Positions 3,095 through 57,602 of a DNA stretch of 64,000 nt are shown piece by piece. Both the position numbers and the translations under genes were made by a program. Source of the stretch: Kofleriaceae bacterium (lineage in GTDB: Bacteria > Myxococcota_A > Polyangia > Haliangiales > Haliangiaceae); NCBI GenBank assembly GCA_018057825.1, contig JAGPCY010000021.1, forward strand, positions 1 through 64,000. Reading direction: 5' to 3'. Within the stretch, counting starts at the first letter, position 1. Every line of letters begins with the position of its first letter. A model generated the notes under the pieces. The model worked only from the letters and a program-made list of their open reading frames with translations, ran no database searches and was not told the DNA's origin.

Positions 3095-5814
3095 CCACCC
3101 GCTTCCTCCATCGCGCGCTCCTGGCCGCCGCCGCCCTGACCGCGGCCCCGCTCACCGCCGTCGCCGGCACCGGCACGATCGAGGGCGTGGTCGTCGACAC
3201 CCGCGGCGCGCCCCTGGCCGGCGCCCGCGTCACGATCACCTGCGGCGCGGTCGTCCGTCGGGTCGCCCTCGATCGCGGCGGCGGCTTCAGCGTCGCCGGG
3301 CTGCCCAGCGGCGCGTGCACGGTCACCGCCGACGGCGGCGGCCTGACCGCCGCGGTCGCGGTCGCGGTCGGCGACGGCGCCACCGCCTCGGTGCTCTTGA
3401 CCCTGCGCCCGCCGGCGCCGCCGCCGGCGATCCTGCCGGAGGAGCCCGCGGTCGCCATGGCCGCGCCAGCCGCCGAGCCGATGCCCGCCCCGCGCCCCGC
3501 GAACCGCCGGGCCCTGCCCGCCGCTCCGGCCGGCCCGATCGGCGGCGGGGCCATGCGACCGCCGCCGCCGCCGCGGATCGTCCGCCTCGATGACGACGGC
3601 AAGTTCAAGCGGGACCGGCTGCGCGCCGACGACAAGGCCGAGGCGATCGCCGGCGAGCGGATCGACGACCGCCCGGGCGACGGCGGCTTCGCGCCGGTGC
3701 GGGTGTTCCCGGTGCCGCTCTACACCGCCGGCTACGACGGCCCGCGCACCGATTTCCGCGAGACGATCTACTGGAACCCGACGGTCGTGACCGACGCCCG
3801 CGGCCAGGCCTCCGTGAGCTTCCCGACCTCCGACGCGATCACCGCGTTTCGGGTCACCGCCGAGGGCTTCGGCGCCGACGGCAGCCCGGGCGCGGGCGCG
3901 GTCGCGGTGACCTCGAAGCGCCCGCTCACCCTCGACGCGCAGCTCCCGGTGGCCGTCACCGCGGGCGATCGGATCGAGCTGCCGATCACGGTGGCCAACC
4001 AGACCGAGCAGGCGCTCGACGCCGAGCTGACCGCGAGCTTCGGCCCGGCCTTCCGGGTCGACGGCGCGCCGCCGACCAAGGTGCGCCTGAAGGCGGGCGG
4101 CAAGCACACCGTGATCGTGCCGCTCGAGGTGGTCGCCACCGACGGCGACGCCACGGTCGCGCTGGCGGTGAAGGGCCGGGGCCTGACCGACGAGGTCACC
4201 CGCGCGATCCGCGTCGTGCCGCGCGGCTTCCCGTTCGAGCGCTCGGCGGCGGGGACCGCGAAGGCCGGTCAGGTCGTGCGCGAGGAGCTCGATCTCACCG
4301 GCGCCGAGGCCAGCTCGATCGCCGCGACCGTGACGATGTACCCGTCGGCCTTGGCGTCGATGACCCAGGGCCTCGAGGGCATGATCCGCGAACCCGGCGG
4401 CTGCTTCGAGCAGACCTCGTCGACCAACTATCCCAACGTCATGGTGCTGGCGTACCTGGCGCAGTCCGACGACGCCGACCCGGCCCTGGTCGAGCGCTCG
4501 CGCGACGTCCTCGACAAGGGCTACCGGCTCCTGACCGGCTACGAGACCAAGGAGCGGGGCTACGAGTGGTTCGGTCAGACGCCCGGACACGAGGCGCTCA
4601 CCGCCTACGGCCTGATGGAGTTCGCCGACATGGCCAAGGTCTACGACGTCGATCGCGACATGGTCGAGCGGACCGCGACCTGGCTCATGAGCCGGCGCGA
4701 CGGCCAGGGCGGGTTCCGTCGCTCGACCACCGCCCTCGACTCCTTCGGGCGCGCCTCGCCGGCGACCACCGACGCGTACATCGTCTGGGCCCTGGCCGAG
4801 GCCGGGCGCACCGGGGACCTCGGTCCCGAGCTCGCGGCGCTGGGGCGGCTGGCGACCACGACCCGGGATCCGTACCTCCTGGCCCTGGCGACCAACGCGA
4901 TGTTCCTGGCCGGCGCGCCGACCGCGCCCGGCCTGGCGACCCGGCTGGCGGCGATGCAGGCCGCCGACGGCGGGTTCCCTGGCGCCGCCGAGTCGATCAC
5001 CAAGTCGGGCGGCGAGTCGTTGACGATCGAGACCACCGCGCTGGCGACGCTGGCGCTCCTCAAGGCCGGCGGCGCCCACGCGGCCGCGGTCCGGAGCGCG
5101 GTCGACTACCTGAACGATCATCGCGGCGGCTACGGCGAATGGAGCAACACCCAGGCGACCGTCTTGGGCCTCAAGGCCCTGACCGCCTACGCCGAGGCCT
5201 CGAAGCAGATCGCGACCGCCGGGAGCGCGACCGTGACGATCAACGGCCGCGCGGTCGGGACGATCGAGTTCGCGGCCGGACATCAGGCGGCGCTGGTGTG
5301 GGACGATCTGGCCGGCGCGCTCCGCCCCGGCAAGAACGTCGTCGAGCTCGCGCTCACTGGACCGGCGACCCTGCCGTACTCGATCGCGGTCGACTACCGC
5401 GCGGCCCAGCCGCAGTCGTCGCCGGCGGCCAAGGTCGCGGTGACCACCGAGCTGACCGCGTCGCGGGTCGCGGTCGGCGAGGGCGTGACCCTGCGCGCCA
5501 CCGTCGAGAACCGCACCGGCGACGGCGTGCCGATGACCCTGGCGCGGATCGGCCTGCCGGGCGGACTGGTGGCCCAGACCTGGCAGCTCAAGGAGCTGCG
5601 CGAGCGGGGCACGATCGACTTCTACGAGACCCGCCCGCGCGAGGTGATCGTGTACTGGCGGGCGCTGGCGCCCTCGGCCAAGCACACCCTCGACCTCAAG
5701 CTCCTGGCCGCGGTGCCCGGCCGCTACGAAGCGCCAGCGTCGAGCGCGTATCTCTACTACACCGACGAGGACAAGCAGTGGGCGCCGGCGCTGGCGGTCG
5801 AGGTCACGCGGTGA
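3091..5814 (+). CDS. Alpha-2-macroglobulin-like protein, thioester-bearing C-terminal half
   Basis: The ATG at 3091 overlaps the preceding stop (ATGA) and gives 907 residues with a Sec signal peptide (residues 1 to about 25). Next come a carboxypeptidase-regulatory-like beta domain (about 27-110), a Pro-rich linker, and the A2M-family domain with YWNPTVVTDARGQASVSFPTSD around residue 230. The thioester motif is Gly-Gly-Cys438-Phe-Glu-Gln441, within an alpha-alpha toroid of about 300 residues. C-terminal MG and receptor-binding-like domains follow. Cys and Gln of the internal thioester are both present, so covalent capture of a protease is plausible. With the previous gene it makes up a whole macroglobulin, about 1,480 residues in two chains. 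Confidence 0.88.
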
Positions 5815-5870
5815 CGATTTTTCGTTAACGGTCCCGGCGCGGCGGCGTCCTGGTCGCAAAGGAGCCGCTC

Positions 5871-6302
5871 ATGACCAAGCCCACCCTCATCGCCGCCGCC
5901 GTCGCCGCCCTGGCCTCCACCGCCCACGCCGCCCCGCCGCGCCCGCAGGCGCCCACGCCGCGCCCGCTGCTCCGCCCGGTGGCGTCGCCGTCGGTGCCGG
6001 TGGCCACACCGTTCACCAACCGCGAAGGCCGCCCGGTGTGCGGCAACATCGCCAACAAGGGCAAGAAGCTGCGCGAGTGCATCGACACGGTCGGCCGCAA
6101 CTTCCAGGAGCAGCGCCGGGACTCGGCGGCCGGCCCGACCTGGATCACCCTCGAGCGCAACTGCACGATCGCCGACGCCCAGGTCAAGCTGACGCCGGCC
6201 ACCGGCCGGGCCGAGGTGGTCCGCGCGGGCAAGGTGTCGACGACGGCGTTCGCGACCTCGACCGACCCGGCGGTGATCGCGTGCCGCGCGGGGCTGTCGT
6301 GA
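5871..6302 (+). CDS. Small secreted protein of unknown function
   Basis: This 143-aa protein has a clear signal peptide ending AHA (about residues 1-20), then a Pro-rich stretch, then a compact domain with four cysteines (PVCGN, RECID, ERNCT, IACRA) that may form two disulfides. A GGAG-type ribosome site lies just before the ATG. I know no family match. It follows the macroglobulin genes by 56 bases, and its stop overlaps the GTG of the ferritin-like gene, so the two are translationally coupled. Confidence 0.7.
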   Translation: MTKPTLIAAAVAALASTAHAAPPRPQAPTPRPLLRPVASPSVPVATPFTNREGRPVCGNIANKGKKLRECIDTVGRNFQEQRRDSAAGPTWITLERNCTIADAQVKLTPATGRAEVVRAGKVSTTAFATSTDPAVIACRAGLS

Positions 6303-7117
6303 CCGCGGCCTTCAGCCTCGACTGGCTGGGCGGCTGGTCGGAGCGCCGGCTGCGTCGGCGGCGGCCCGGGATCGACGACCTGCCGTGGGGCAGCCTCGAC
6401 CTGACCGCCCACGCGCCGGCCGCGATCGACGAGGCCCGTCGGGTGTGGACCCAGGGCACGTTCAGCGAGTACGCCAGCGCGGCCGCGTTCGCCAACCTCA
6501 CCACCGCGCTCCTCGAGAGCGGCGCCCCAGTCGACCTGACCGCGGTCGCGGCCGACATCGTGGTCGACGAGCTCGACCACGTCGAGCTGGTGGCGCGGCT
6601 GGTCGGCGAGCTGGGCGGCGCGGTCGAGCTGGCCTTCGACCTGGCCAAGGTGTCGCAAGCTCCCGACGCCTCCGCGCGGCCGCTGATGCGCGCGGTCGAG
6701 CTGGCGCTGTCGGTGTCGTGCGTCGGCGAGGCCCTGTCGGTGCCGACCCTGGCGTGCTCGCGCGAGCTGGCCACGACGCCGCTGGTCGCCGCGGTCCTGG
6801 ATCGGCTCCTGGCCGACGAGGGGCCCCACGCCGAGCTCGGCTATCGGGTGCTGGGCTGGGCCATGCCGCTCCTCGACGACGGCGAGCGCGCCCGGGTGGC
6901 CGAGCTGGCGCTCGGGGCGATCGCCGCCTTCGCGCCGCTGTGGCAGGGGCCGGCCTGCGACGCCTGTCAGGCACCGGCGCTGGGCGTGGCGGCCCCCGCC
7001 GACTACCGCCGGACCCTGCGGCGGACCATCGACGCCAAGATCCTTCCGCGCCTGGCGTCCCACGGGGTCGTCGTCGCGCCCGGCGCCCTCGACCGGGTCC
7101 TGGCCGACCTGCTGTAA
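6299..7117 (+). CDS. Ferritin-like di-iron domain protein
   Basis: The GTG at 6299 overlaps the preceding stop (GTGA) and yields 272 residues. Two ExxH motifs, in DELDHVELV and DEGPHAELG, sit in predicted long helices. With further acidic residues this is the pattern of a four-helix ferritin-like fold that binds two iron atoms. There is no signal peptide, so it is probably cytoplasmic. The rest is Ala- and Leu-rich helix, with a CDAC pair near residue 220. Whether it oxidises iron, stores it or acts on an organic substrate cannot be told. Coupling to a secreted four-cysteine protein suggests a shared, unknown task. The fold is fairly sure; the function is open. Confidence 0.7.
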   Translation: MTAAFSLDWLGGWSERRLRRRRPGIDDLPWGSLDLTAHAPAAIDEARRVWTQGTFSEYASAAAFANLTTALLESGAPVDLTAVAADIVVDELDHVELVARLVGELGGAVELAFDLAKVSQAPDASARPLMRAVELALSVSCVGEALSVPTLACSRELATTPLVAAVLDRLLADEGPHAELGYRVLGWAMPLLDDGERARVAELALGAIAAFAPLWQGPACDACQAPALGVAAPADYRRTLRRTIDAKILPRLASHGVVVAPGALDRVLADLL

Positions 7118-7148: not shown

Positions 7149-7538
7149 ATGCGAGCCCTCGCCTTGGCCGTGGTGTGCGCGACCGCGTGCGCCGACGTCG
7201 ACGATCGCCCGACCGACTGGCGGTACCTCCACGCGGCGATCGTCGCGCCGGCCTGCGCCACCGCCGGGTGTCACTCGGCGGCCGCCGCCACCGCCGGCCT
7301 CGATCTGTCGACCGCGACCGGGGCCTACACCTACCTGACCGGCCGGATCTGCGGCGAGCCGGTCACGCCGGGTGCGCCGCCGCGCAACTACGTCACGCCC
7401 GGCAGCCCGGAGTTCTCGCAGCTCGTCTATCAGCTCCGCGGCGCCGGCCGCGATCGCATGCCGCCCGACGGGGCGCTGCCCGAGGTCGAGATCGCGCTGA
7501 TCGAGCGGTGGATCCTGGAGGGCGCGCCGTGCGAGTGA
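7149..7538 (+). CDS. Exported c-type cytochrome-like protein with CX4CH motif
   Basis: This 129-aa protein has a short signal sequence; Cys14 may be lipidated, although the lipobox is weak. The motif Cys36-ATAG-Cys41-His42 is a CX4CH variant of the haem c attachment site. Near the C-terminus, DRMPPDGALP and an IxRWIxxGAPC stretch are typical of small membrane-associated cytochromes of myxobacteria and planctomycetes, where the Met of RMPP can serve as the sixth haem ligand. It is the first of four exported cytochrome-like genes and overlaps the next by ten bases. Confidence 0.75.
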   Translation: MRALALAVVCATACADVDDRPTDWRYLHAAIVAPACATAGCHSAAAATAGLDLSTATGAYTYLTGRICGEPVTPGAPPRNYVTPGSPEFSQLVYQLRGAGRDRMPPDGALPEVEIALIERWILEGAPCE

Positions 7539-8638
7539 TCCTCCTCGCGGTCGCCGCGCTCGTCGCTGCGGCCGCGCCCGCCGCCGCGTACCCGCGCTTC
7601 GTCGAGGCCACCGGCGCCACGACCTGCGGCGAGTGCCACCAGAGCCCGACCGGGGGCGGCCTCCTCACCGACTACGGTCGCCTCGAGGCCGGTGACACGA
7701 TCAGCCGCGGCGGCGACGGCGCCCTGCTCCACGGCGCGTGGTCACCGCCGTCGTGGCTGGCGCTGGGCGGCGATCTGCGCCTGGCCGGGCTGGCCAAGGC
7801 CGACGACGCCGACCGCACGCTCGCGGCCTTCCCGATGCAGGCCGACGTCGCCGCCGCGGTCGTGGGCAAGGGCTTCGGCTTCCACCTGATCGTCGGGCTG
7901 CGCGGCTCGGCGCGGACGCCGCGACCGCCGCTGGTCGAGCGCCTGAACTCGCGCGAGCACTTCCTGTCGTATCAGCGCGGCGACGTCTACCTGCGCGCCG
8001 GCCGGTTCTTCTCGACGCTGGGCTTGCGACTCCACGATCACACCGCCGCGGTCCGCCGCTACCTCGGGTTCGGCCTGCAGGAGGAGCCCTACGGCGTGGC
8101 CGGCGGCGTCGTGCGCGGCGACTGGGAGGCCCACGTCCACGCCTTCGTGCCGCAGCCGGTGCCGCTCCTGGGCGCGGGGCCGCGGGCGTACGGGCTCGCC
8201 GCCAGCTACCAGCGTCGGATCATGGACGGCCTGGCCACCGTCGGCGTCAACGCGCGCTACGCCCACGGCGCCGAGGATCGGCGGGCGCTGGTCGGCGCCT
8301 TCGGTCGACGCTGGTTCGAGCGCGCCCAGGTGCTGTTCCTCGGCGAGCTCGACCTGCAGCGCCAGAGCTTCGCCGCGGTCGACGCGCCGCGCTGGCAACT
8401 CGCGAGCTACCTCGGCGCCGCCAAGCCGTTGACCCGCGGCGTCTGGCTCGGCCTGGCGCTCCACCGCTGGCAACCCGACCTCGGGCTGCGCACCGCGCGC
8501 GACGCCGTCGAGCTCGATCTCCAGCTCTTCCCCTGGGCCCACGCCGAGCTGCACTGGTCGACCAAGGCCGGCGCGGTCGGTGGCGATCTCGATCGCCCCG
8601 GCGTGACCTCGATCCTGCAGCTCCACTACTACCTGTGA
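7529..8638 (+). CDS. Mono-haem cytochrome fused to outer-membrane barrel-like domain
   Basis: From the GTG at 7529 the 369-aa product begins with a signal peptide (MRVILLAVAALVAAAAPAAA), then a canonical haem site, Cys33-GE-Cys36-His37. About 300 residues of alternating beta strands follow, rich in Tyr, Arg and aromatic girdle residues, and it ends in LQLHYYL, with an aromatic near the C-terminus as in outer-membrane porins. The GTG at 7535 (GTGA overlap) is an alternative start; 7529 keeps a basic residue before the hydrophobic core. The architecture suggests a haem held at the periplasmic mouth of an outer-membrane barrel, perhaps for electron exchange across the membrane. That role is inferred. 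Confidence 0.72.
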   Translation: MRVILLAVAALVAAAAPAAAYPRFVEATGATTCGECHQSPTGGGLLTDYGRLEAGDTISRGGDGALLHGAWSPPSWLALGGDLRLAGLAKADDADRTLAAFPMQADVAAAVVGKGFGFHLIVGLRGSARTPRPPLVERLNSREHFLSYQRGDVYLRAGRFFSTLGLRLHDHTAAVRRYLGFGLQEEPYGVAGGVVRGDWEAHVHAFVPQPVPLLGAGPRAYGLAASYQRRIMDGLATVGVNARYAHGAEDRRALVGAFGRRWFERAQVLFLGELDLQRQSFAAVDAPRWQLASYLGAAKPLTRGVWLGLALHRWQPDLGLRTARDAVELDLQLFPWAHAELHWSTKAGAVGGDLDRPGVTSILQLHYYL

Positions 8639-8645
8639 GGCCGTG

Positions 8646-9353
8646 ATGCTCGCCCGCGCAACCCTCACCTACGCCATCGTCGTCGCCGCGGTCGTCGCCG
8701 GCTGCGCCGAAGACGCGCCGACCTCGCCCAACTTCCAGACCGACGTCGTGCCGATCCTCGCCGCCAACTGCGTGCGCTGCCACGGCGTGCCGACGATCGG
8801 CGGCGCCCCGAGCGACTGCATCGACAGCCCGAGCGGGCCGCGGCGCTGCGGCTTCCGCCTCGACAGCTACGACGACACGATCATCGACGAGGGCGACCCG
8901 ACGAGCGCGACCGACGATCGCTTGGTCCTCGGGTTGGCCTCGGTCGCGCTCGCCATCCCCGAGCGCGTCGACAGCCCGACCGAGCCGATGCCGCCGCGCT
9001 TCCCGCTCGGCGACCGCGAGCGCGCGATCCTCGCGGCGTGGGCCACCGGCGATCCGCCGGTCCGCTCGGCCCGCCCCGACAACGTCCCACCGAGCGCGAC
9101 CGCGGCGCTGACCGACGGCGCGACCGTCGCCTTCGCGGTCGAGGTCGCCGACGACGATCGCGATCCGGTGGTCGGCGAGCTGCGGGCCCGGGGGCCGGCG
9201 GGCGATCGCCTGATCGCGCCGCTCCGCTCGGGGCGGGCGAGCGTGAGCTGGCCGCGGCCGACCGCCGCGGGCCGCTACGAGGTGGTCGCCCGGCTCGATG
9301 ACGGCGCGGGCTGGATCGAGATCCCGGTGGCCAGCCTCGAGGTGGCGCCGTGA
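8646..9353 (+). CDS. Cytochrome c-like lipoprotein with C-terminal beta domain
   Basis: This 235-aa protein has a lipoprotein signal with Cys20 (VVAGC) and a haem c site at Cys42-VR-Cys45-His46. A C-rich loop (Cys58, Cys68), MPPRFPLGDRER, which resembles the distal Met region of planctomycete/myxobacterial cytochromes, and a C-terminal immunoglobulin-like beta domain of about 80 residues follow. The ATG at 8646 is preferred over the GTG directly before it. The gene starts seven bases after the barrel gene, and its stop overlaps the next ATG, so the cassette is translated as a unit. Confidence 0.75.
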   Translation: MLARATLTYAIVVAAVVAGCAEDAPTSPNFQTDVVPILAANCVRCHGVPTIGGAPSDCIDSPSGPRRCGFRLDSYDDTIIDEGDPTSATDDRLVLGLASVALAIPERVDSPTEPMPPRFPLGDRERAILAAWATGDPPVRSARPDNVPPSATAALTDGATVAFAVEVADDDRDPVVGELRARGPAGDRLIAPLRSGRASVSWPRPTAAGRYEVVARLDDGAGWIEIPVASLEVAP

Positions 9354-9781
9354 GGGCCGCGGCGCTCCTCCTCGCGGCGACCGCGTGCGCCGTCCCGGTC
9401 GACCCCGAGCCGCTGGGCGACTACACGACCTGGAAGCGCCTCGACGTCCGCGGGCCGGCCCCGGGCCACGGCGACACCTACCGCGTCATCTACGTGAACC
9501 CGATCGCCGCCGATCCCGCGGCGTCGCTCACCGGCGGTTATCCCGACGGCGCGATCGTCGTGAAGGAGATCCGCGACGACGTGGCCGGCGCGCCCGGCGA
9601 TCTCCGCTACCTCGCGATCATGCGCCAGCTCCAGAGCGACCCCGAGCACGCCGACGAGGGCGGCTGGCTGTTCACCCAGGCCACGAGCCCCGGCGCCGAC
9701 GAGTCCTATCGCTCGTTGTGCTGGGCGCGCTGCCACGTCGCCGCGCCGTACCGCGGCGCCTGGTACGACTACCGACAGTAG
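9350..9781 (+). CDS. Cytochrome P460-like lipoprotein with CX3CH motif
   Basis: This 143-aa protein starts at an ATG-type overlap with the previous stop. It has a short lipoprotein-like signal (Cys13), then a P460-type core: TYRVIYVNP, GGYPDGAIVVKEIRD and GGWLFTQ, ending in SLCWARCHVAAPYRGAWYDYR. The haem attachment site reads Cys124-WAR-Cys128-His129, one residue longer than CXXCH. In P460 proteins a lysine is cross-linked to the haem; Lys72 in VVKE lies in the expected region, but I cannot verify the equivalence. P460 proteins oxidise hydroxylamine or bind NO. The substrate here is unknown. It is the last gene of the cytochrome cassette. Confidence 0.72.
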   Translation: MRAAALLLAATACAVPVDPEPLGDYTTWKRLDVRGPAPGHGDTYRVIYVNPIAADPAASLTGGYPDGAIVVKEIRDDVAGAPGDLRYLAIMRQLQSDPEHADEGGWLFTQATSPGADESYRSLCWARCHVAAPYRGAWYDYRQ

Positions 9782-9907: not shown

Positions 9908-12900
9908 ATGGCAGTGGTGGCGGAAGAGCTGCTCGCAGGGCCGATCGTCCGGCGGGTGACGACGCGCGAGGTCGCGGTCTGGGTCGTTCTTCGACGAGCC
10001 GCCACCTGCGCGCTCCGGCTCTACGCCGCGCCGACCGGCGGCGCGCCGCTGGCGTCGGTCGAGGTGGCGACGGTGGCGATCGGCGAGGCGCTCCATCTCG
10101 GGCTCCTGTGGCTGCGTCTCGGCCCCTCGGAGCTGCTCCAGCCCAACCGGGTCTACGCCTACGACGTCACCTTCGACGGCGACGGGCTCGGCGCCCTCGG
10201 CCTCCTCGAGGACGGCGTGATCGGCGGCCATGCCCACAAGGCCCTGGGCTACGTCGCCGGCCACCGCCCGACCTTCGTGACCCCACCGCTGGCCGCCCAC
10301 GAGCTGGTCTTGACCCACGGCTCGTGCCGGCGTCCGTACGCCCCCGGGCGCGACGGCCTGGTGGCCCTCGATCAGCTCCTCGAGCGCGGGCGGATCCCGA
10401 GCGCCGAGCACCCGCGGCCGCACTACCTGTTCCTCACCGGCGACCAGATCTACGCCGACGACGTCTCGCCCGAGCTCCTCGAGGTGCTGTCGCGCACCGG
10501 CGCCGACCTGATCGGGCGCGACGAGCTGGGCCGCCCCATCGAGCGGGTCCGGGTCGACGTCGGCGACGGCGCGAGCGCGCGGACGATCGCCGTGCCGGTC
10601 GACGAGCTGCACCTGCCGCCCGGGCGCCGGGCGCGCCTGATGACGCGGGCCGCTGGGTTCACCTCGAGCGACAGCCAGTCTCACGCCGTCGGCGTCGGCG
10701 AGCTCGTCGCGCACTACCTCCTGTCGTGGAGCAACGTCCTGTGGCCGACCTGGCGCGACACCGGGGACGGCAGCGACTGGAAGCGCCGCTTCGCCGAGCG
10801 CAAGGCCGACGTCCTGGCGTACCTGGAGGCCTGGCGCGACCGGGCGCGCGAGGTCGACCGCCGCGGCCCCGGCTCGACCTTCCGCACCAACCTCGCCGAT
10901 CGCGTGCGCCGCCTCGACGGCGCCGCCCTGATCCCGAGCCGCCTGCGGCTCATCGAGGCCTGGGCGCGGCGCCCGGCCGCCGAGTGGGCCCAGCCGCCGC
11001 CGCTGCCAGCGTCGGACACCGAGGCCCAGACGCGCCTCGCGGACTGGTGGTCGTTCTGGGGCGCCGCGGCGCCCACGCCGACGCTCGCGCCCGTGGACGA
11101 GGCCCGCCACGCCCGCGAGCTGACCCAGCTCCGGGCCTCCCCGGCGGCCGATCTCGAGGCCCTCGCCAACCTCCTCACCCCGGCATGGTTCGCCGGCTGC
11201 GAGCACTACAAGCTGGCCTTCGATCACGGGCTCCCCGCGGGGGGCCCACCCGAGCTCGCGGCGATCGAGCTCGAGAGCGACTCGGTCGTCGGCCGACTCC
11301 GCCAGCTCCGCCGCTTCTACGAGGGTCTCCCCTACGTGCGCCGGGCGCTGGCCAACGTGTCGTGCTTGATGATGTTCGACGACCACGAGGTCACCGACGA
11401 CTGGAACATCAGCATGGCGTGGGTCGCGCACACCGGCGCCAAGGCCCTGGGGCGCGACACGATCGCCAACGCGCTCGTGGCCTACGGCCTGTGCCAGGAC
11501 TGGGGCAACCTGCCGGCGCGCTACGCCCCGGCGGAACCGCCCGCGGGCGAGCCGCGACGAGAGCAGCCCCACGAACGGCTCCTCCGCCTGGCGCAGGCCT
11601 TGTTCCGCGACGGCGATCGACCGCGCCCGGCCGGCCCCACCATCGACGCCCGCAGCCAGCTCGAGGCGCTGTTCGGGCTCGGCGCCCATGAAGCGCCGCA
11701 GCTCGACTGGCACTGGTCGCTCACCGATCCGAGCGCCGCGCCCTACGAGATCCTCTCGATCGACAACCGCACCCGCCGCGGCTACGAGACCCGCGAGGGC
11801 TCGCCGTCCGCCGTGTCCCGCGAGTCGCTGCCGGCGCAGCTCCCGACGACGGGCCCGGCGGGCTCCGAGCTGACGATCGTGATCGCGCCGCTACCGCCCA
11901 TCGGCTTCGCGCCGATCGAGGAGCTGATCCAGCCCATCGTCAACCTGATCGAGGAGTACCGCGCGGATCCGCGGTTCGCCGAGTGGCGGCCCCGCCAGGA
12001 CTTCCCCGACGTGCAGGTCGACTACGCCTACGGTCGCCTGGGCCGCGACCCGGAGCCGTGGTCCTTCGTGCCGCGCTCCTTCGAGGCGCTCCTCGCCCGC
12101 TTGTCGTCGCGCCGCGCGGTCGTGTTCCTGTCGGGCGACGTCCACTACGCGTTCTCGGCGCAGCTCACCTACTGGAAGGGCGCCGCCGGTGGGCTGGTGG
12201 CGAGCACGCGCTTCGCGCAGCTCACCTCGAGCGCCCTCCAGAACCAGCCCGGCGAACGCGAGACGTTGCTCATCCACATGGCCGGCGCGCAGCAGTTCGG
12301 ATCCATCTTCACCGGCCCCTACGACCGCCTCGGGTGGGCGCGCGCCGACGCGAGCGGCCCGCCGTTCGACCGCGCCCGGGTGTCGCCGCGAGTGCGCCAG
12401 CTCCTCGAGCGCGAGCCGGTCCTGGTCCCGTCGCGGGCCCTGCCCGACGACGTCCTCGAGGATCTCTACCAGCGCCGGTGGCCGCGCGCGCCGGAGTGGG
12501 CGTGGCGCCTCACCCTCGCGAAGGACCTGCGGCCCGACGAGGTGCGCTACCGGGAGCTCCCGTCGGAGCGCCACCGCTGGGAGCTGCCGACCGCCGACGA
12601 GCTGGCGCGCGACCTGCCGCTCGGGATGCGCCGGATCCTCGACCACCACGCCTGGCACGCGACCCACGGCACGCCCCGCCGCGTGTTGTTCCTGTCGAAC
12701 CTCGGCGTCGTGCGGTTCGCCGCGGCGCCGCAGCTCGCCGTGATCCACTCCCTCCATAGCTGGGATCGCGAAGGTGCCGGGCCGGGCGGCGGCCCCGCGA
12801 TCCCGAACCGGCCGTGGCCCGAGGCCCTCCTGCCCGCGCAGGCCTACACCGAACACGTCATCTCCCTCGTCCCGGGCGACGAGCGCGCGCCGGACCAGCG

Positions 12901-12919
12901 TGAGGTCGCGCGGTCCTGA
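9908..12919 (+). CDS. PhoD-like metallophosphoesterase, 1003 aa
   Basis: The calcineurin-like PhoD signature is complete: HGSCRRP at 137-143, TGDQIYADD from 177 (Asp179), FDDHEVTDDWN with Asp491, Asp492 and His493, and SGDVHYAF with Asp744 and His746. These residues bind the two metals in PhoD phosphodiesterases. The protein is about twice the usual length. It has an N-terminal beta domain of about 130 residues, a helical insertion between about 250 and 480, and a C-terminal extension after about 770. No signal peptide or twin-arginine motif is seen, unlike exported PhoD, so it may act in the cytoplasm. It lies 20 bases upstream of the lipoprotein genes and may head the operon with the giant proteins. 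Confidence 0.8.
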   Translation: MAVVAEELLAGPIVRRVTTREVAVWVVLRRAATCALRLYAAPTGGAPLASVEVATVAIGEALHLGLLWLRLGPSELLQPNRVYAYDVTFDGDGLGALGLLEDGVIGGHAHKALGYVAGHRPTFVTPPLAAHELVLTHGSCRRPYAPGRDGLVALDQLLERGRIPSAEHPRPHYLFLTGDQIYADDVSPELLEVLSRTGADLIGRDELGRPIERVRVDVGDGASARTIAVPVDELHLPPGRRARLMTRAAGFTSSDSQSHAVGVGELVAHYLLSWSNVLWPTWRDTGDGSDWKRRFAERKADVLAYLEAWRDRAREVDRRGPGSTFRTNLADRVRRLDGAALIPSRLRLIEAWARRPAAEWAQPPPLPASDTEAQTRLADWWSFWGAAAPTPTLAPVDEARHARELTQLRASPAADLEALANLLTPAWFAGCEHYKLAFDHGLPAGGPPELAAIELESDSVVGRLRQLRRFYEGLPYVRRALANVSCLMMFDDHEVTDDWNISMAWVAHTGAKALGRDTIANALVAYGLCQDWGNLPARYAPAEPPAGEPRREQPHERLLRLAQALFRDGDRPRPAGPTIDARSQLEALFGLGAHEAPQLDWHWSLTDPSAAPYEILSIDNRTRRGYETREGSPSAVSRESLPAQLPTTGPAGSELTIVIAPLPPIGFAPIEELIQPIVNLIEEYRADPRFAEWRPRQDFPDVQVDYAYGRLGRDPEPWSFVPRSFEALLARLSSRRAVVFLSGDVHYAFSAQLTYWKGAAGGLVASTRFAQLTSSALQNQPGERETLLIHMAGAQQFGSIFTGPYDRLGWARADASGPPFDRARVSPRVRQLLEREPVLVPSRALPDDVLEDLYQRRWPRAPEWAWRLTLAKDLRPDEVRYRELPSERHRWELPTADELARDLPLGMRRILDHHAWHATHGTPRRVLFLSNLGVVRFAAAPQLAVIHSLHSWDREGAGPGGGPAIPNRPWPEALLPAQAYTEHVISLVPGDERAPDQREVARS

Positions 12920-12939: not shown

Positions 12940-13587
12940 ATGAGATCCCGATCGATTCTTGGTGTGATGCGCGCCGCGGGCGCTTCGTGGGCGGCCGTGT
13001 TCGTGCTCCTCCTCGGAGGCTGCTACACGAGCCTCGGCGCCGGCGTCGGCGGCGGTCGGCGAAACGGCGAGCACAGCGTACGCGGCACCGGCTCGGTGGC
13101 GATCGGCGGTGCGCTCGACATCGGCGGAGCGAGGTTCGGGCTTGGCGCGGTGCCAGTTGGCCAGAGTCTCTCTTATGGGGCAGAGGCGCGGACCGAGATC
13201 TGCCTTCGCTCCTCCCCGGAGCCTGTGAGGTATGGCAGGGCCGTGCCGAGCTGTAGCGCCGATCTGAAGCGGACCACTCTCAACCTCCGACTCCACTGGC
13301 TTCCCGGCATGTATCTCCAGGACAAGCCAGTCGAGTATCCCAGTATCGCCGCATACGACACGGGCTTCTTCGTCGCCGTAGGCATCGGCCGCGATGGGCG
13401 AGACGCCACGCCCAGCGAGGTCGCCCGCGTGATCGAGTACGGGAACATCGCGACGGGGCTCTTCTATTCACAACGCTGGTTCGACGATCGCGACAGCGAC
13501 TGGACCGCCGGGGTGTTTCTCGAGCTCTCCTTTCGGGGAGACATTCTGGCAGGCATCGCCGACGCAGCCATGCGCAAGCCGCACTAG
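12940..13587 (+). CDS. Barrel-like lipoprotein, paralogue 1 of 3
   Basis: An AAGGAG ribosome site precedes the ATG of this 215-aa protein. It has a signal peptide and lipobox (LLGGC, about residue 27) followed directly by YTSLGAGVGGGR. It shares the core pattern GGR, FGLGAVPVG, SYGAEARTEICLRS, TLNLRLHWLPGMY, YDTGFFVA and LFYSQRWFDDRDSDWTAGVFLE with the next two genes. Regular beta strands and aromatic turns suggest a small barrel or a surface lipoprotein. I do not know the family. Base composition is visibly less GC-rich than in the PhoD gene before it. It probably forms one transcript with the following genes. Confidence 0.75.
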   Translation: MRSRSILGVMRAAGASWAAVFVLLLGGCYTSLGAGVGGGRRNGEHSVRGTGSVAIGGALDIGGARFGLGAVPVGQSLSYGAEARTEICLRSSPEPVRYGRAVPSCSADLKRTTLNLRLHWLPGMYLQDKPVEYPSIAAYDTGFFVAVGIGRDGRDATPSEVARVIEYGNIATGLFYSQRWFDDRDSDWTAGVFLELSFRGDILAGIADAAMRKPH

Positions 13588-13591
13588 CACC

Positions 13592-13651
13592 ATGGCGAAG
13601 CTCACTGACCTGCCGAGAGCGCTAGCCCATGTGGCACGAGCCGTGCTCGGC
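13592..13651 (+). repeat. Leader repeat copy 1 (duplicated 5' end of gene at 15181)
   Basis: About 60 bases encode MAKLTDLPRALAHVARAVLG. This is close to the first 20 codons of the giant gene at 15181 (MAKLTDLPRALARVTRDVLG) and to a third copy at 14453-14512. It sits between lipoprotein paralogues 1 and 2. The frame stays open into paralogue 2, but a signal peptide start lies at 13781, so this copy is probably a relic of tandem duplication or a coupling leader. Confidence 0.85.
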
Positions 13652-13780
13652 CCGGTCCTACTGCACACGATCGCCCGGCAGAAACTGACCACCGCGCCAC
13701 GCGTCGACCAGGGGGCCACTGTGGACGACGAACGACCCGCCATGGCTACTCATTCTCACACCACCTTGGAGGCTGCCACA

Positions 13781-14440
13781 ATGACAACTGCATCCCGGCA
13801 CCTCCGATCCACCTTCACACTGATCCCGCTCGTATGCCTGGGCCTTGCTACTGTTGGATCGGGCGCCTGCTATCATGGAGTTGGCCTGGGGCTTGGGGGC
13901 GGCCGGGTCGACAACAAGCAAGGTGTACGGGCAGCCGGAGGATTCTCTCTTGGCGGCGCCTACGACTTCGGCGCTGCGCGCGTCGGGATTGGAGCGGTCC
14001 CGATCGGCAACGGCTTCACCTACGGCGCAGAGGTCCGGGCAGAGCTGTGCCTCCGGTCACGCAACCCGGAGAGAGACCCACGCACTGGCCGTGGGCTAGG
14101 TCGCTGTGCGACCGACCGAGAGAGGAACATGCTCAACCTACGGGCTCATTGGTTGCCCGGCATGTATTTCGACGACGACCCGACCGAATACCCCGAGCGC
14201 ATCGGCTATGACACCGGCCTCTTCGTGGCCCTCGGATACAGCATTGACCTAAGGGCCAGCCAGCCCTCTGATGACCTGCGCATCCGACAGTACGCGAATG
14301 CGGGCATAGGGCTGTTTTTCTCGCGCGACTGGTTCAACACTCGGAGCGGCGACTGGAGCGCGGGTGTCTACGCAGAGTGGTCAGCGCGATTCGATTTCGT
14401 TCAGGCCCTCGGCGATCTAGTCTCAAGGGGATCTCACTAG
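13781..14440 (+). CDS. Barrel-like lipoprotein, paralogue 2 of 3
   Basis: I place the start at the ATG at 13781: a GGAGG lies nine bases upstream and the signal peptide begins there (MTTASRHLRSTFTLIPLVCLG, lipobox SGAC). An earlier in-frame ATG at 13592 would bury the signal peptide 63 residues inside the protein. The 219-aa product matches paralogues 1 and 3 throughout: HGVGLGLGGGR, GIGAVPIGNGFTYGAEVRAE, LNLRAHWLPGMYF, YDTGLFVALG, LFFSRDWFNTRSGDWSAGVYAE. Function is unknown; export to the envelope as a lipoprotein is the only safe statement. Composition is less GC-rich than the window average. Confidence 0.72.
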   Translation: MTTASRHLRSTFTLIPLVCLGLATVGSGACYHGVGLGLGGGRVDNKQGVRAAGGFSLGGAYDFGAARVGIGAVPIGNGFTYGAEVRAELCLRSRNPERDPRTGRGLGRCATDRERNMLNLRAHWLPGMYFDDDPTEYPERIGYDTGLFVALGYSIDLRASQPSDDLRIRQYANAGIGLFFSRDWFNTRSGDWSAGVYAEWSARFDFVQALGDLVSRGSH

Positions 14441-15180: not shown

Positions 15181-18100
15181 ATGGCGAAGCTGACCGACCT
15201 ACCGAGAGCGCTGGCCCGCGTGACACGAGACGTGCTCGGCCAGGTCCGCAGCTTGAGCTTGCAGCCGTGGGAGCTAGAGAACTTTGCGCAAGGTGTGCCG
15301 GCACCCCCGCCGGAGTTCTTCGCGCAGGTCGATGAGCTCTTGGGTCTTGAAGCTGCGGGGCTCGATCTCGCCGACCTGCTCGAGATCCTCGACGGCCTAC
15401 GGGATGCGTACGGCGCCGTCAGCGACCACGATCCGGCTGACCTGTTCGCCCGACTCTTCGGACCACTCCTGCTCTGTACGATGCGGGCCGATCCATCGTG
15501 GCGTCCGTCCTACCCGTTCGTCGCGGCGGTCCTCGCTGCCGACGATGCGCTCGCCGAACACAGCGCCAGTCGAATGCTGCCCGACCGCTACACTGCGCTG
15601 GCGCTTCGACTCTGGCGCGAAGCCGCCGGACAGCGGAGCACCGACATCAACCATCTCGCGACCTGGCTCACCCTGTCCGCGGTGGCCACAGCGTATCCCG
15701 TGATTCAATGGGGATGGGCGAAGCTGTCGAAGCGATTCTGGGAGGAACAACGGCCAGCCGACCTGAGCCTCGCCCTCGGCTGGGAGAGCGACCTGCCGCA
15801 ACGGGACTCGGCGTTCGACGAGCCGGCGCGGCCGACGTCGACGTGGAGCGCGCAGCGAACCTTCTCCCTTCGCCGCGAAGGGAAGCCGGCGTTCGCGTTC
15901 GCCGACTACGACGAGGCCTCGACGGTCGACGCGCCGCGCGCAAGCGCCCGCCACTGGTCGATCGCCTGCGCGCCGTCGGCCGTCGAACACGCAGCCAATG
16001 CAGGAGAGCCACCAGGGCCGGCCCTCTGGTTCGCGTTTGATATCGCCGAGGGACTTGGCGATTGGCACTACGGCAACTGGTCGACTCGCCTACGAGGACA
16101 CGGCAATGGTGTGCGTAGTATCCCGTTCGGAGAAGCGCGTACGGCGACCGCCGCCGGGGCCGGTCTCGAGTTCGAGGCGGTGTGGGCGCCAACCGTCGAC
16201 GACGAGGTCGACCGCCAGCCTGACGCCGGCGACTGCTCGTTCACCGTCGGCGGCGTGGCGATCACGGCGTTTGGTGGCGGAGGGGTCGGGATCGGGGAGG
16301 CCGGGCCGGCGGTGGCGGCCGACGAAGCCGGGGTCGCGATCCGCCTGACCCGGGCCCGGCTGGCCCTGGCGCCGTCGAGCGCGCTGGCTCGCGCGATCCT
16401 GCGGGGCGGGCTCACGCTCGAGGCCGACCTCGGCCTGCGCCTCACGACCCACCGCGGCCTGGTGCTCGAGGGCTCCGGCGGGCTCGACCTGTACCTCGCC
16501 ATCGAGCGCGCGATCGGCAACCGCTGGCTGGGCGCGTCGATCTCGTACCTGCGGCTGCGCCTCATCGTCGACAGCGGGCCCGCGGGGGCCGGGGTCACCG
16601 TCGAGGCGACCGCCGGGGTCGCGATCTCGATCTTCCGGGTGACGCTCACCCTCGAGGGCCTCGGCGCGCGCCTCGCGGTGCGCACCCGCACGCCCCGCGG
16701 CAACCTGCTCGGCATCGCCGACGTCGCCGGCGAGGTGATCACGCCGCCGACGTTTGGCCTGGCGATCGATTGGGGGCCGATCCGCGGCGGCGGGGTGTTC
16801 GCCTACGAGGCCGACCAGGATCGCTACTGGGGCGCCCTCGAGCTGGCCTGGGGCAAGCGCTGGGCGCTGCGCGGCGTCGGGTTCTGCGAGGGCCGCACGA
16901 CCGGCGACGGCGCAACCGCGCGCACCCAGCACAGCCTGGTCGCGCTGGTCACCTGGGAGCGGACCTCAGTCTCGCCCGGGTTCGACCTGACCGGGGTCGG
17001 GGTGTTCGTCGGCACCCACCGGCGCGCCGACGGCGACGCCCTGCGCGAGGGCGTGGTCTCGGGCGCCCTCGACGCGCTCTTGTTCCCGCCCGACCCGGTC
17101 GGCCAGGCCCGGTCGCTGGTCGCCGCCCTCGAGCGGTTCTTCCCGGCGGCGGAGCCCGACGCCGACACCCACGTCGTCGGGGTGCTGCTCAAGCTGTCGT
17201 TCGCCGGCGGCCTGGCCAGCGCCCGCCTGGGCTTCCTCGTGCAGTTCGGCGCCGGCACCGTCAACCGCACCAAGCTGTTCGTCGCCTTCGCCGCCAAGCT
17301 GGCGCTGCGCGGCGCGCTGGCGCGGGTGGTCAAGCTGGAGATGGCCGGCGTCGGTGAGTACGAGGCCGCCACCGGCGACCTCGAGGTCCGCGCGCGACTC
17401 CGCAACTCGCGCCTGTGCGGCGCCAACCTGGACGGCGAGCTCCTGGTGTTCCGCGGCGACCCGCTCGGCGGCGCCGCCGCGCCGGCCGCGCGCACCGACC
17501 TCGAGGCCCTGGCCCGCCCCGGCACCGGCTGGTTCTTCAGCCTCGGCGGCTATCACCCGCGATGGTTCGACGGCAAGGGCCCGGGGCGAGCCCGGGTCGA
17601 CCAGCGCATCGCGGTCACCGTCCACAAGGGCGACGCCTTGACGATGGAGTGGAGCGGCTACCTGGCGCTCACGCCGTCGGCGATCCACCTCGGCGCCCGG
17701 GCCCGGGTCGCGCTGTCGGCCGGCGGCTTCGGCATCGAGGGCCTGTGCGGCTTCGACGGCATGGTGACCTACGACTGGGACTTCGTCCTCGACGTCTTCG
17801 GCCAGGTTCGCCTCATCCTGTTCTCGCGCACGCTGTGCGACCTCGGGCTCGAGGGCACGCTGCGCGGCACCAGCCCGTGGTCGATCGCCGGGCGGGTCAA
17901 ATACAAGATCCTGTGGTGGTCGGGCAGCAAGTGCTTCTCGCAGCAGCTCACCGACGACACCGAGCCGGCCCCGCCGCCGCCGTCGCTGGCCACCCAGGTG
18001 CGGACCGCCCTCGCCGAGCCGGCGGCCTACGCCGATGCGGCGCCCGGCGCGATCGCGTCGACCAAGCGCGAGCGGACCGGGCTGTGGGGCGCGCCGGAGC

Positions 18101-18630
18101 GCGGCCTGCGCGCGACCCAGACGATCGCGCCGCTCGGGGTCGCGGTGACCCGGCTGGGCGCGGTCCGCTTGCCGCGACCGACCGCCGCCGCGGTGACCTC
18201 GGTCGAGCTGGGCGGTGCGCCGTGGCCCCATCGCGCGGTGACCGCGGCCTTCGCGCCCGGCACGTTCTTCGACCTGACGACCGCCCAGGCCTTGACGGCG
18301 CCGGCCGCCGAGACGCTCGACGCCGGCTTCGAGGTCGCCCACGACGCGATCGCGGTCGGCGGCGAGCAAGAGGCGATCGCCCGCTACGACGCGATCACGA
18401 TCGACCGCGGCCAGACCGCGGCCGCGCCGCGGCCGCGCGAAGTGGTCGGGTTGCCCCCCGAGGTCCACCTCGCCGAGCTGGCCAGGCGGGCGCCGCCACC
18501 GCCGCCGCCGCGACAGGTCAGGGTCGCGCCGGCCGAGTACGCGCGCCCAGGCGTCCCTGCCCGCGGGCGCTTCGCCACCCTGGCGGCCACCGGGGCGCCG
18601 CTGCGCCGAGCCCGCGCGGGGGTCGCGTGA
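15181..18630 (+). CDS. Giant uncharacterised protein 1, 1149 aa (DUF6603-like)
   Basis: The ATG at 15181 begins MAKLTDLPRALARVTRDVLG, the sequence duplicated upstream. Residues of about 30-330 are mixed helical. From about 360 to 940 the chain is almost all amphipathic beta strands (GGGGVGIGEAG, LEADLGLRLTTHRGLVLEG, GGGVFAYEADQDRYWGALEL). A conserved SLGGYHP lies at 787-793, followed by LALTPSAIHLGARARV. This resembles what I recall of the DUF6603 family, large proteins of unknown function; the match is from memory. There is no signal peptide. The first 950 bases are less GC-rich than the remainder, as if the gene were of two origins. The stop overlaps the next GTG. Confidence 0.7.
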   Translation: MAKLTDLPRALARVTRDVLGQVRSLSLQPWELENFAQGVPAPPPEFFAQVDELLGLEAAGLDLADLLEILDGLRDAYGAVSDHDPADLFARLFGPLLLCTMRADPSWRPSYPFVAAVLAADDALAEHSASRMLPDRYTALALRLWREAAGQRSTDINHLATWLTLSAVATAYPVIQWGWAKLSKRFWEEQRPADLSLALGWESDLPQRDSAFDEPARPTSTWSAQRTFSLRREGKPAFAFADYDEASTVDAPRASARHWSIACAPSAVEHAANAGEPPGPALWFAFDIAEGLGDWHYGNWSTRLRGHGNGVRSIPFGEARTATAAGAGLEFEAVWAPTVDDEVDRQPDAGDCSFTVGGVAITAFGGGGVGIGEAGPAVAADEAGVAIRLTRARLALAPSSALARAILRGGLTLEADLGLRLTTHRGLVLEGSGGLDLYLAIERAIGNRWLGASISYLRLRLIVDSGPAGAGVTVEATAGVAISIFRVTLTLEGLGARLAVRTRTPRGNLLGIADVAGEVITPPTFGLAIDWGPIRGGGVFAYEADQDRYWGALELAWGKRWALRGVGFCEGRTTGDGATARTQHSLVALVTWERTSVSPGFDLTGVGVFVGTHRRADGDALREGVVSGALDALLFPPDPVGQARSLVAALERFFPAAEPDADTHVVGVLLKLSFAGGLASARLGFLVQFGAGTVNRTKLFVAFAAKLALRGALARVVKLEMAGVGEYEAATGDLEVRARLRNSRLCGANLDGELLVFRGDPLGGAAAPAARTDLEALARPGTGWFFSLGGYHPRWFDGKGPGRARVDQRIAVTVHKGDALTMEWSGYLALTPSAIHLGARARVALSAGGFGIEGLCGFDGMVTYDWDFVLDVFGQVRLILFSRTLCDLGLEGTLRGTSPWSIAGRVKYKILWWSGSKCFSQQLTDDTEPAPPPPSLATQVRTALAEPAAYADAAPGAIASTKRERTGLWGAPERGLRATQTIAPLGVAVTRLGAVRLPRPTAAAVTSVELGGAPWPHRAVTAAFAPGTFFDLTTAQALTAPAAETLDAGFEVAHDAIAVGGEQEAIARYDAITIDRGQTAAAPRPREVVGLPPEVHLAELARRAPPPPPPRQVRVAPAEYARPGVPARGRFATLAATGAPLRRARAGVA

Positions 18631-21155
18631 GCCACCGCTTCGTCTCCTGGCTACGGGTCGGCATCGGTGCGGTGCCTGGGCGCACCGTCGTCGGCGATCA
18701 CGCCGAGCTGCGCCTGCGGGTGTCGGTCGACGGCGTCGCTGGGCCGACCCGAGCCGTGACGCTCCACGGCCCCGGCGACTGCGCCGGCCTGGCCGGAGAC
18801 GCCATCCTCCGCCGCGAACCGCCCCCCAACGCGGTCGGGGTGTCGCCGACCGGCTTCGCCGCGCTCGAGTTCGTCGCCGCCGATCTGCCGTGGCGGCTGA
18901 CGCCGACCGAGCCGGCGACCGGGCAGCTCACGCCGTGGCTGGCGCTCGCGGTGGTCCCGGCGACCGCGCGCTTCGCCCGCGCCGATCCGCGGACGTTGCC
19001 GGTCTTGACCGTCGACGCCGTCGAGCTGCCGCCGATCGCGTCGATCGCGACCTGGGCCCACGTCCAGCTCGACGACGACGAGGTCGGCGCGCCGCTCGCC
19101 GAGGTCCTCCGGGCCAACCCGGAGCGCGCGCGTAGCCGGCTCCTCGCCGCCCGCCGCCTGACGCCGCGGACCCGGTACCGCGCGTGCCTGGTGCCGACCT
19201 TCGAGGCCGGACGCCGCGCCGGCCTGGGCCAGCCGATCGGCGACGCTGGCGTGGCGCCGGCGTGGACCGACGGCGCGGTCGCGGTCGAGCTGCCGGTCTA
19301 TGACACCTGGGAGTTCGAGACCGGCGAGGTCGCCGACTTCGAGACCCTGGCGCGCGGCGTGCGGCCCGTCGCGGCCGCGCGCTGGGCGACGCCGCGTCTC
19401 CTCGACACCAGCGCGGTCGGCGGCGTGACCCCGGCGACGCGCTACGGGTTCTTGCGGCCGCCGGGCGCCACCGACGCGCTCCCCGACGCGGCCGCCATCG
19501 GCGTGGCGCTCGAGGCGGCGATGACCGGGCCCGGCGCCGCGACCCCGCGCGTCGGGCCGCCGCGCTACGGCGCGATCACCACCGGCCACGAGCCGGTCGG
19601 CGACGAGCCGCCGGTCACCGCGCCGCGACCGAGCTGGTGCGATCAGCTCAACCGCGATCCGCGCCTGCGGCTGTTCGCGGCCGCGGGCGCCGAGTTGGTG
19701 CGCCGCGAACAGGACGCGCTGGTCGACGAGGTCCAGCGCCAGCTCGGCGACGCCACGCGCGCCGACGAGCTGCGCCGCGGCGCAGCGCTGGCCGAGGTCC
19801 TGGCCGAGCGGCTCCACGAGCGCCACGTCCGCTCACGACCGCCGGCCCAGGCGATCGCGGCCTTCGCCCGCGGCGTCGGCGCGTCGCGCCCGCTCGTCGA
19901 CGTGACCGCGCCGGCCTGGCGTCGGTTGCGGCGGCCCCTCGGTCCGCTGGCCCGTGGCCGCGCCACCGCCGGCCCGGCGATCGCCCGGATCGGCGCGGAT
20001 CTCGATCCGGAGCCGCCTGTCCCACGGGTCGTCGGGCTCACCACCGTGCGCTCGGCGGAGCTGGCGATCCGCCAGGTCGCGCCTCCGCCGCGCCCGCCGC
20101 GCCCACGCCCACCCCGCCCACCGCCCGGGGACGAGTCCGGCTGGCCGCCGTCCGACGAGCCACCGGTGGCGGAGCCGTCGCCGCTGTCCGACGCGCGGGT
20201 CGCGGAGCTCCGCCTGGCGCTGGCGGCCCGCGCCGCCCGACCGCCGGCCCTGTACGCCCGCCCGACCGTCGCGGTCCTCGACGTGGCGGCGGCGGCCGCG
20301 CCGCTGTTCGCCCGCGATCCGGCGGCGCCGATCCGCGCCCTGGCCGAGGCCCAGATCGTGACGGCCTCGCCCAGCCCCGGCCGCCCGGCGCCCACCCCGG
20401 CGGTGACGTCGTCGCTGGCCGTGGTCGAGGCCCTGGCGGCGCTCGATCGCGCGCGCTTCGCGCCCGGCGCCGACGCCATGCCGCCGTCGACGGTCTCGGT
20501 GCTCGAGCTCGATCGCGCCGCGGTCGCCGCCGCCGTCGTCGGCGCCAACCACGAGCTGGCCCGCGAGCTGGCGTGGCGACGGTTGCCCTTCGACCCGCGG
20601 GCCACCGCGATCCGAGGCCTGTGGCGCCGCGGCGACGGAGCGGCCCCGCCGATCACCTCCTGGACTGGACCGCTCGGCGCCAGCCTGCCGGCCACCGCCA
20701 CGGTGTTCGTGCTCCGCAGCGAGCTGGTCCGCCGGTTCCCCGACGCCATCTACGCGCTCGCACCGGCCGTCCCCGACCGCGAGCGTCATCGCGTCCCGGG
20801 GCCCACCCTGCGCCTGCCGGTCTTCCGCTTCGACCTCGGCGCCGACCTGGTCTGCGTCGGCTTCGCCGACGAGCTGGCGTCGCTGGGCCGCGACCTCGGC
20901 ACCTACCTCGTGATCCTCGAGGCGGTCGGCGCAGCCCGCTTCGGCCTCGACGCGGCGGCCAGCGACGGTCCGCCCGCCTGGGTCAACCTGTCGTGGGACG
21001 CGGTCAGCGCGGATCCGTACCTGCGGCTGGCGCCGCCGCCGAGCGGGACCTGGCCGAGCAAGCCGCGCTGGGCCGGTGGCGCCGCGGCGATGGCGGCGAT
21101 CACCGAGCGCCCGGCGGTCCGTCTGGCCCTTCACCTCGACGAGCTGGTGCCCTGA
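18627..21155 (+). CDS. Giant-operon protein 2, 842 aa, unknown function
   Basis: It starts at the GTG overlapping the previous stop (GTGA). The N-terminal 130 residues form a beta domain with DLPWRLTP and QLTPWLALAVVP, a pairing I recall from unannotated large proteins of actinobacteria and myxobacteria. A helical region with RREQDALVDEVQRQLGD lies near 355, a Pro/Arg-rich linker around 486-510, and a long C-terminal part ends in AVRLALHLDELVP. No catalytic motif, signal peptide or membrane segment is visible. Its ordered position between the other large genes suggests a subunit of one cytoplasmic assembly. Confidence 0.65.
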   Translation: MSHRFVSWLRVGIGAVPGRTVVGDHAELRLRVSVDGVAGPTRAVTLHGPGDCAGLAGDAILRREPPPNAVGVSPTGFAALEFVAADLPWRLTPTEPATGQLTPWLALAVVPATARFARADPRTLPVLTVDAVELPPIASIATWAHVQLDDDEVGAPLAEVLRANPERARSRLLAARRLTPRTRYRACLVPTFEAGRRAGLGQPIGDAGVAPAWTDGAVAVELPVYDTWEFETGEVADFETLARGVRPVAAARWATPRLLDTSAVGGVTPATRYGFLRPPGATDALPDAAAIGVALEAAMTGPGAATPRVGPPRYGAITTGHEPVGDEPPVTAPRPSWCDQLNRDPRLRLFAAAGAELVRREQDALVDEVQRQLGDATRADELRRGAALAEVLAERLHERHVRSRPPAQAIAAFARGVGASRPLVDVTAPAWRRLRRPLGPLARGRATAGPAIARIGADLDPEPPVPRVVGLTTVRSAELAIRQVAPPPRPPRPRPPRPPPGDESGWPPSDEPPVAEPSPLSDARVAELRLALAARAARPPALYARPTVAVLDVAAAAAPLFARDPAAPIRALAEAQIVTASPSPGRPAPTPAVTSSLAVVEALAALDRARFAPGADAMPPSTVSVLELDRAAVAAAVVGANHELARELAWRRLPFDPRATAIRGLWRRGDGAAPPITSWTGPLGASLPATATVFVLRSELVRRFPDAIYALAPAVPDRERHRVPGPTLRLPVFRFDLGADLVCVGFADELASLGRDLGTYLVILEAVGAARFGLDAAASDGPPAWVNLSWDAVSADPYLRLAPPPSGTWPSKPRWAGGAAAMAAITERPAVRLALHLDELVP

Positions 21156-57299: not shown

Positions 57300-57305
57300 G
57301 GTTCT

Positions 57306-57483: not shown

Positions 57484-57602
57484 TCTTTCACGGCGACGCG
57501 CGACGAGCGCTGGCGCCACGGGACGAGGGACGAGGGGCCGCGGACGACGGCGAAGGAAGGCTGGCGAGACGCCGCCATCGCCGCAAGGCTCGCCGCGCCG
57601 GC

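Follow-up and report, generated by a model that had tools for sequence, protein, structure and literature searches.

A conserved operon of predicted exported haem proteins in a Kofleriaceae bacterium, combining a Cyc2-like cytochrome-porin with a P460-type protein that carries a CX3CH site

Four genes found in the DNA of a Kofleriaceae bacterium encode proteins with putative haem-binding sites of three different spacings, CX4CH, CX2CH (twice) and CX3CH. The locus raises the question of whether these genes make up a unit kept in evolution, and which electron path the encoded proteins could form. The sequence analysed, hereafter the window, corresponds to the first 64,000 nucleotides of contig JAGPCY010000021.1, and belongs to an assembly of 8.9 Mb in 84 contigs. 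Open reading frames and motifs were all located as described in the initial annotation. The genes, here called A to D, and two upstream genes are the following.

Gene U2, 5871-6302, + strand: small exported protein (open reading frame).
Gene U1, 6299-7117, + strand: possible accessory protein, ferritin-like by eye.
Gene A, 7149-7538, + strand: PSCyt1-type monohaem protein with the site CATAGCH (CX4CH), predicted small lipoprotein (open reading frame, Pfam).
Gene B, 7529-8638, + strand: Cyc2-like protein, in which an N-terminal haem segment with CX2CH (AYPRFVEATGATTCGECHQSPTGGG) is fused to a predicted outer-membrane barrel of 16 strands.
Gene C, 8646-9353, + strand: monohaem domain with the site CVRCH (CX2CH), predicted lipoprotein; C-terminal, possibly Ig-like domain (sub-threshold).
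Gene D, 9350-9781, + strand: P460/c'-beta fold with the site CWARCH (CX3CH), predicted lipoprotein; K72 and A89.

Operon layout and conservation of gene order

Gene B, whose likely start codon is the GTG at 7529, begins within the last 10 nt of A; a gap of 7 nt separates it from C, which starts with the ATG at 8646, and the last 4 nt of C are also the first of D. Because the four genes are packed end to end, translational coupling across them is likely. Scanning of the operon region revealed no RNA families and no promoter-like sites. No terminator-like sites were found within the operon, the only one being located at 5803-5815, upstream of U2; promoter and terminator scans are, however, of little weight in so GC-rich a genome. 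Elsewhere in the window, a 6S RNA is encoded at 57305-57485 on the + strand (RF00013, 57.3 bits).

Lipobox-like signals were read in 51 of 52 A, 29 of 33 C and 21 of 27 D rows of the alignments, the last figure being reduced because some rows are masked or have uncertain starts and two are outgroup proteins. The lipobox cysteine of D (Cys13) is one of nine invariant alignment columns. B features an N-terminal signal-like stretch, ending near AAA-YP. All these signals were read by eye from the sequence; A, C and D are accordingly three probable lipoproteins, alongside the predicted barrel B. The early view of exported haem proteins encoded by a single conserved operon is supported, the lipobox-like signals of A, C and D being an addition to it.

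Homologues were searched in 35 genomes of the order, and 60 neighbourhoods were fetched and gene-mapped. B homologues are found in 32 of the 35 genomes, D homologues in 19. Conservation of the four-gene order in other myxobacteria had been proposed as a check, and the complete A-B-C-D array was found at 17 loci, the window included; several further loci end at contig edges. A is located directly before B, on the same strand, at about 50 loci, many of which lack D. Motif spacings are similarly kept. CX4CH is found in 51 of 52 A rows. For CX2CH the figures are 56 of 59 rows in B and 32 of 33 in C, the remaining rows of both being truncated by a contig end or by masking. CX3CH is present in the window D and in all 23 other readable members of its family, a set of 24 sequences that comes from 18 genomes and extends to identities as low as 35%. 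As homologues keep both order and spacings, a chance origin of the motifs is ruled out. Lack of conservation of the motif cysteines had been named as one result that would speak against the cassette; these residues are conserved in homologues of all four proteins. At the 17 loci the distance matrices of A, B, C and D correlate with one another (Mantel r 0.73-0.82, none of 2000 permutations as high), but much of this may stem from the species history that the proteins share, which Mantel permutations leave in. Plasmid sequences searched with B gave no match, and the search of a genome-contig database with the same protein returned only two loci.

A second A-B-C-D copy is found in the same genome on contig C3, at about 16700-19300. 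The two D proteins are 59% identical, the two B proteins 50%. The barrel of the C3 copy falls in a clade with 100/98 support, the operons of which end at a convergent pair of DUF1552 and DUF1592/1588/1587/1595/1585 genes; the same convergent arrangement was found at nine other loci. Upstream of the window operon, U1 ends 31 nt before A and is overlapped by U2 by 4 nt. U1 has no Pfam match; inspected by eye, it contains two ExxH motifs (ELDH and EGPH), typical of ferritin-like proteins, and five of its closest homologues adjoin A-B pairs in other genomes. U2 has no family match, and its link to the module is uncertain. Downstream of the operon, a 1003-aa PhoD-like phosphatase (PF09423, 32.5 bits) is encoded at 9908-12919 (+); none was seen beside the operon at the other mapped loci. 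Two adjacent genes located further on (12940-13587 and 13592-14440, both +) encode clearly similar exported proteins, and are apparent tandem duplicates.

The Cyc2-like protein B and its partner A

The initial annotation suggested that the cassette could form a route from a periplasmic oxidation to the cell surface. Cyc2, the Fe(II) oxidase of Acidithiobacillus, Mariprofundus and Gallionellaceae, moves electrons inward from Fe(II), and is the closest characterised architecture to B. In B, which is 369 aa long, the CGECH site spans residues 33-37 and the barrel begins at residue 77. The AF2 model, built from 29 homologues, has exactly 16 strands over residues 77-368, with a mean pLDDT of 82.6 and a pTM of 0.80. 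The description of the second protein as a haem domain joined to an outer-membrane barrel therefore agrees with the prediction. Confidence is low for residues 11-60, where the haem site lies (pLDDT block means 36-69). The two cysteines and the histidine of the haem site, and the AYP preceding it, are invariant in the 29 sequences, the haem segment being among the most conserved parts of the protein. Foldseek searches returned general and sugar porins; general porins scored best, and OprP and OprO ranked lower.

In the literature Cyc2 is a 16-stranded porin that bears a CXXCH domain at its N-terminus, is structurally similar to OprO/OprP, and is recognised by the motifs AXPXFAR[QK][TY] upstream and PXL downstream of CXXCH (PMC8406198). 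B has the single N-terminal CXXCH fused to a barrel, 16 strands (a prediction) and a length above the 365 aa minimum, but neither motif: AXPXFAR[QK][TY] is replaced by AYPRFVEAT in the window and AYPQFQLST in relatives, and CXXCH is followed by CHQSPTGGG and CHxSPxGGG, respectively, in place of PXL. As both signatures are absent, the filing of B as Cyc2 was rejected. A pattern search of 189 genomes of the phylum identified full Cyc2 motifs in 10, and not in the window genome. Distant relatives of B occur in 51 of the 189.

Intermediate sequences bridge the distance to Cyc2. In hhalign comparisons the B family matches a group of barrels from three loci (L101, L119 and L120) with 99.9% probability (E 9.6e-32). 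This group, which features the motif AxPRFAARNG..CxxCHVxPSGGG, matches in turn the myxobacterial proteins with Cyc2 motifs (97.4%, E 1.1e-11) over both haem site and barrel. The direct match of B to Cyc2 is weaker (90%), and covers barrel columns only. Judging from these profiles, B is homologous to the proteins with Cyc2 motifs, chiefly by way of intermediates. We regard it as a fused cytochrome-porin that resembles Cyc2 in design but lies on a branch of its own, membership in Cyc2 not being claimed. The L101 barrel is encoded in the window genome (contig C61, 76500-84400), where it is preceded by a protein with five CX2CH sites and PSCyt1-type domains and followed by a frame with two CX2CH sites, an array that is a possible further conduit.

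Protein A matches PF07635 (PSCyt1) with 23.6 bits, a marginal pass of the curated cut-off of 22. The conserved MPPD found after its haem site could provide, by analogy with other monohaem cytochromes, a methionine as sixth haem ligand. Four PSCyt1-type proteins were found in the genome. The three small ones (A, its paralogue on contig C3 and a protein encoded on contig C51) carry CX4CH, and the multi-domain one, encoded on contig C61, carries CX2CH. The small protein on C51, at about 12574, adjoins a frame with five CX2CH sites. CX4CH is therefore the rule both in the A family and in the small PSCyt1-type proteins of this genome, and its interpretation as an oddity was ruled out. The rarity initially attributed to both noncanonical spacings holds for CX3CH, which is unusual, but not for CX4CH, which is fixed in its family; only the CX3CH P460-type protein is surprising. 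Haem attachment is probably by System I, since CcmF is encoded in the genome and the single ResB match is the same frame as CcmF.

The P460-type protein D and its CX3CH site

Protein D had been called P460-like, and profile and fold both bear this out. It matches PF16694 with 39.5 bits (curated cut-off 27), and its structure model (pLDDT 86.5) aligns to known P460/c'-beta structures with Z scores of 11.5-14.6, among which 14.6 to 7ead (rmsd 2.6, 122 residues aligned), 13.5 to 9hrk and 11.8 to 6amg; the next unrelated fold scores 4.6. A single-sequence phmmer search of the PDB gave noise only, the profile search recovering P460/c'-beta proteins.

The haem motif of the superfamily is CXXCH according to a 2025 review, which also names the residues that determine function (PMC11928373); D departs from this motif. 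CX2CH was found in 37 of the 38 other phylum proteins matching PF16694 that were read. An unrelated P460 protein with CX3CH (CGYECH) was identified at locus L136 (G167:C253); as it falls outside the D family, the longer motif probably arose at least twice, and was fixed in the D lineage. Both haem cysteines, His129, K72, M91 and W106 are invariant in D.

The lysine cross-linked to haem in P460 proteins (Lys70, Lys78 or Lys106) corresponds to Phe61 in McCP-beta (PMC11928373, Table 2). K72 of D aligns to this Phe61, and the column is confirmed by 7zqz, the F61V entry, in which K72 falls on the valine; the lysine expected of a P460 sensu stricto is therefore present, and invariant. The distal carboxylate is Glu96 in NeP460 and Asp102 in McP460, and is replaced by Gly82 in McCP-beta and by Ala131 (also printed Ala130) in NsP460, which is inactive on NH2OH; NsP460 oxidises hydroxylamine when Glu is restored, and not with Asp (PMC11928373). 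A89 of D falls in this column both in the McCP-beta alignment and in the NeP460 alignment obtained via the L114 protein (alignment A2). Alanine is found at position 89 in most D proteins, Glu in four (L071, L073, L077, L086) and Asp in one (L080). From these residues the window D is predicted to be cross-linked yet not hydroxylamine-oxidising, and some of its relatives could oxidise hydroxylamine. Of the hydroxylamine or NO chemistry envisaged in the initial annotation, hydroxylamine oxidation is disfavoured for the window protein, because the carboxylate needed by NeP460 and McP460 is replaced by Ala89, as in inactive NsP460.

Possible working of the module and comparison with known systems

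The reading that we favour, and hold to be fairly probable, is that A-B-C-D forms an outer-membrane electron-transfer module in which D is a ligand-binding haem accessory. B would be a 16-stranded outer-membrane barrel with one covalent c-type haem on its short N-terminal segment, placed in or at the pore, and would pass electrons across the membrane. On the periplasmic side A, a lipid-anchored monohaem cytochrome, would exchange electrons with the haem of B, and C would act as a second lipid-anchored monohaem carrier. D would be a lipid-anchored P460/c'-beta-type protein with an open coordination site, its haem attached at a CX3CH site one residue longer than the standard motif, with a probable cross-link to Lys72. 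The protein may bind or turn over a small ligand such as NO or peroxide, and perhaps hydroxylamine in the relatives with Glu or Asp at position 89, its electrons being handled by the same A-B-C chain. We infer that the sites are occupied by haem and that A and B exchange electrons, and likewise the membrane topology, the ligand of D and the direction of electron flow. Because many A-B loci lack D, it is taken as an accessory, with a putative electronic link to B suggested by synteny.

Cyc2-type iron oxidation is a narrower version of this explanation, possible but distinctly less probable. Here B would oxidise Fe(II) or Mn(II) at the cell surface and electrons would flow inward via A and C, for energy or metal detoxification, with U1 handling iron. 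The Cyc2-like architecture and transitive homology of B fit this scheme, as do the closeness of the ferritin-like U1 with its paired ExxH and the five other loci at which U1 homologues adjoin A-B. The lack in B of both motifs that mark Cyc2 (PMC8406198), and the presence of full-motif sequences elsewhere in the phylum but not, as far as the pattern search found, in this genome, argue against it. That B is an ordinary solute porin, with a haem segment of structural value only, is very improbable: its best fold matches are indeed porins, but Cyc2 itself yields such matches (PMC8406198, PMC10654088), the haem segment is among the best conserved tracts of B, and cytochrome A is nearly always adjacent.

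Other alternatives concern D. It is conceivable, if rather doubtful, that D is a gas or peroxide sensor or scavenger that merely shares the operon, the conduit working without it. The many A-B pairs lacking D fit this possibility, and Ala at position 89 recalls c'-beta proteins and NsP460; yet D is fourth in the operon at 17 loci, overlaps C by 4 nt, and diverges in step with A, B and C. A further view, that the operon is a nitrogen-oxide module, with hydroxylamine oxidation or NO detoxification carried out by D and the electrons taken outside by A-B-C, is unlikely. It would agree with the P460 fold, the invariant lysine at the cross-link position and the Glu or Asp of five relatives, but not with the alanine that the window D and most orthologues share with NsP460, which does not oxidise NH2OH (PMC11928373), nor with the absence of D from most A-B loci. 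Less likely still is that the CX3CH site holds no two-thioether haem, either because one cysteine alone binds haem or because no haem is bound. CXXCH is the motif described for the superfamily (PMC11928373), and nearly all other P460 matches read in the phylum have it; against this, both cysteines, together with His129, K72, M91 and W106, are invariant in the D family, and CX3CH motifs are also kept in further predicted cytochromes, ImcH among them (PMC6295460).

The four genes form a real and conserved module, made of known parts in a new combination. A search of a literature library found no papers on Kofleriaceae cytochromes, and its one match for extracellular electron transfer in myxobacteria was a general review. 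Cyc2-like conduits are among the simplest known electron routes through the outer membrane, and at about 50 loci such a barrel has, in A, a conserved candidate partner next to it. The P460 fold is a model of how the haem pocket sets reactivity, and the D lineage, with its fixed CX3CH and natural Ala/Glu/Asp variation, is ready test material, which could show that a P460 haem is attachable via a longer motif. It seems improbable, at present, that these operons represent a class of outer-membrane electron conduit in its own right, one that joins a Cyc2-like barrel and a CX4CH lipoprotein to a catalytic or sensing P460-type haem attached through CX3CH, and so wires ligand chemistry at the P460 haem directly to extracellular electron exchange. 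Were it so, the relatives that vary naturally between Ala, Glu and Asp would show how activity was gained or lost.

Compared with known systems, B shares with Cyc2 the single N-terminal CXXCH fused to a 16-stranded barrel, the AxPxF preceding the haem site and a length above 365 aa. It differs from Cyc2 in lacking AR[QK][TY] and PXL, in the SPxGGGLLNxYGR that follows the haem site, and in coming with a fixed PSCyt1-type lipoprotein partner. A resembles planctomycete-type PSCyt1 cytochromes (PF07635) by a score just over the curated cut-off, but forms a small, independent lipoprotein, carries CX4CH and has a barrel as its partner. D has the fold, the profile score, the cross-link-position lysine and the haem-motif histidine of the P460/c'-beta superfamily (PF16694), and is set apart by CX3CH in place of CXXCH, by its probable lipid anchor, by the C-terminus CHVAAPYxGxWxDY and, in the window copy, by Ala at the distal carboxylate position. 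An outer-membrane barrel combined with a haem path is also found in the MtrAB, MtoAB and PCC3 porin-cytochrome conduits; in these, multihaem cytochromes are associated with a separate barrel, whereas here a single haem site is fused to the barrel itself.
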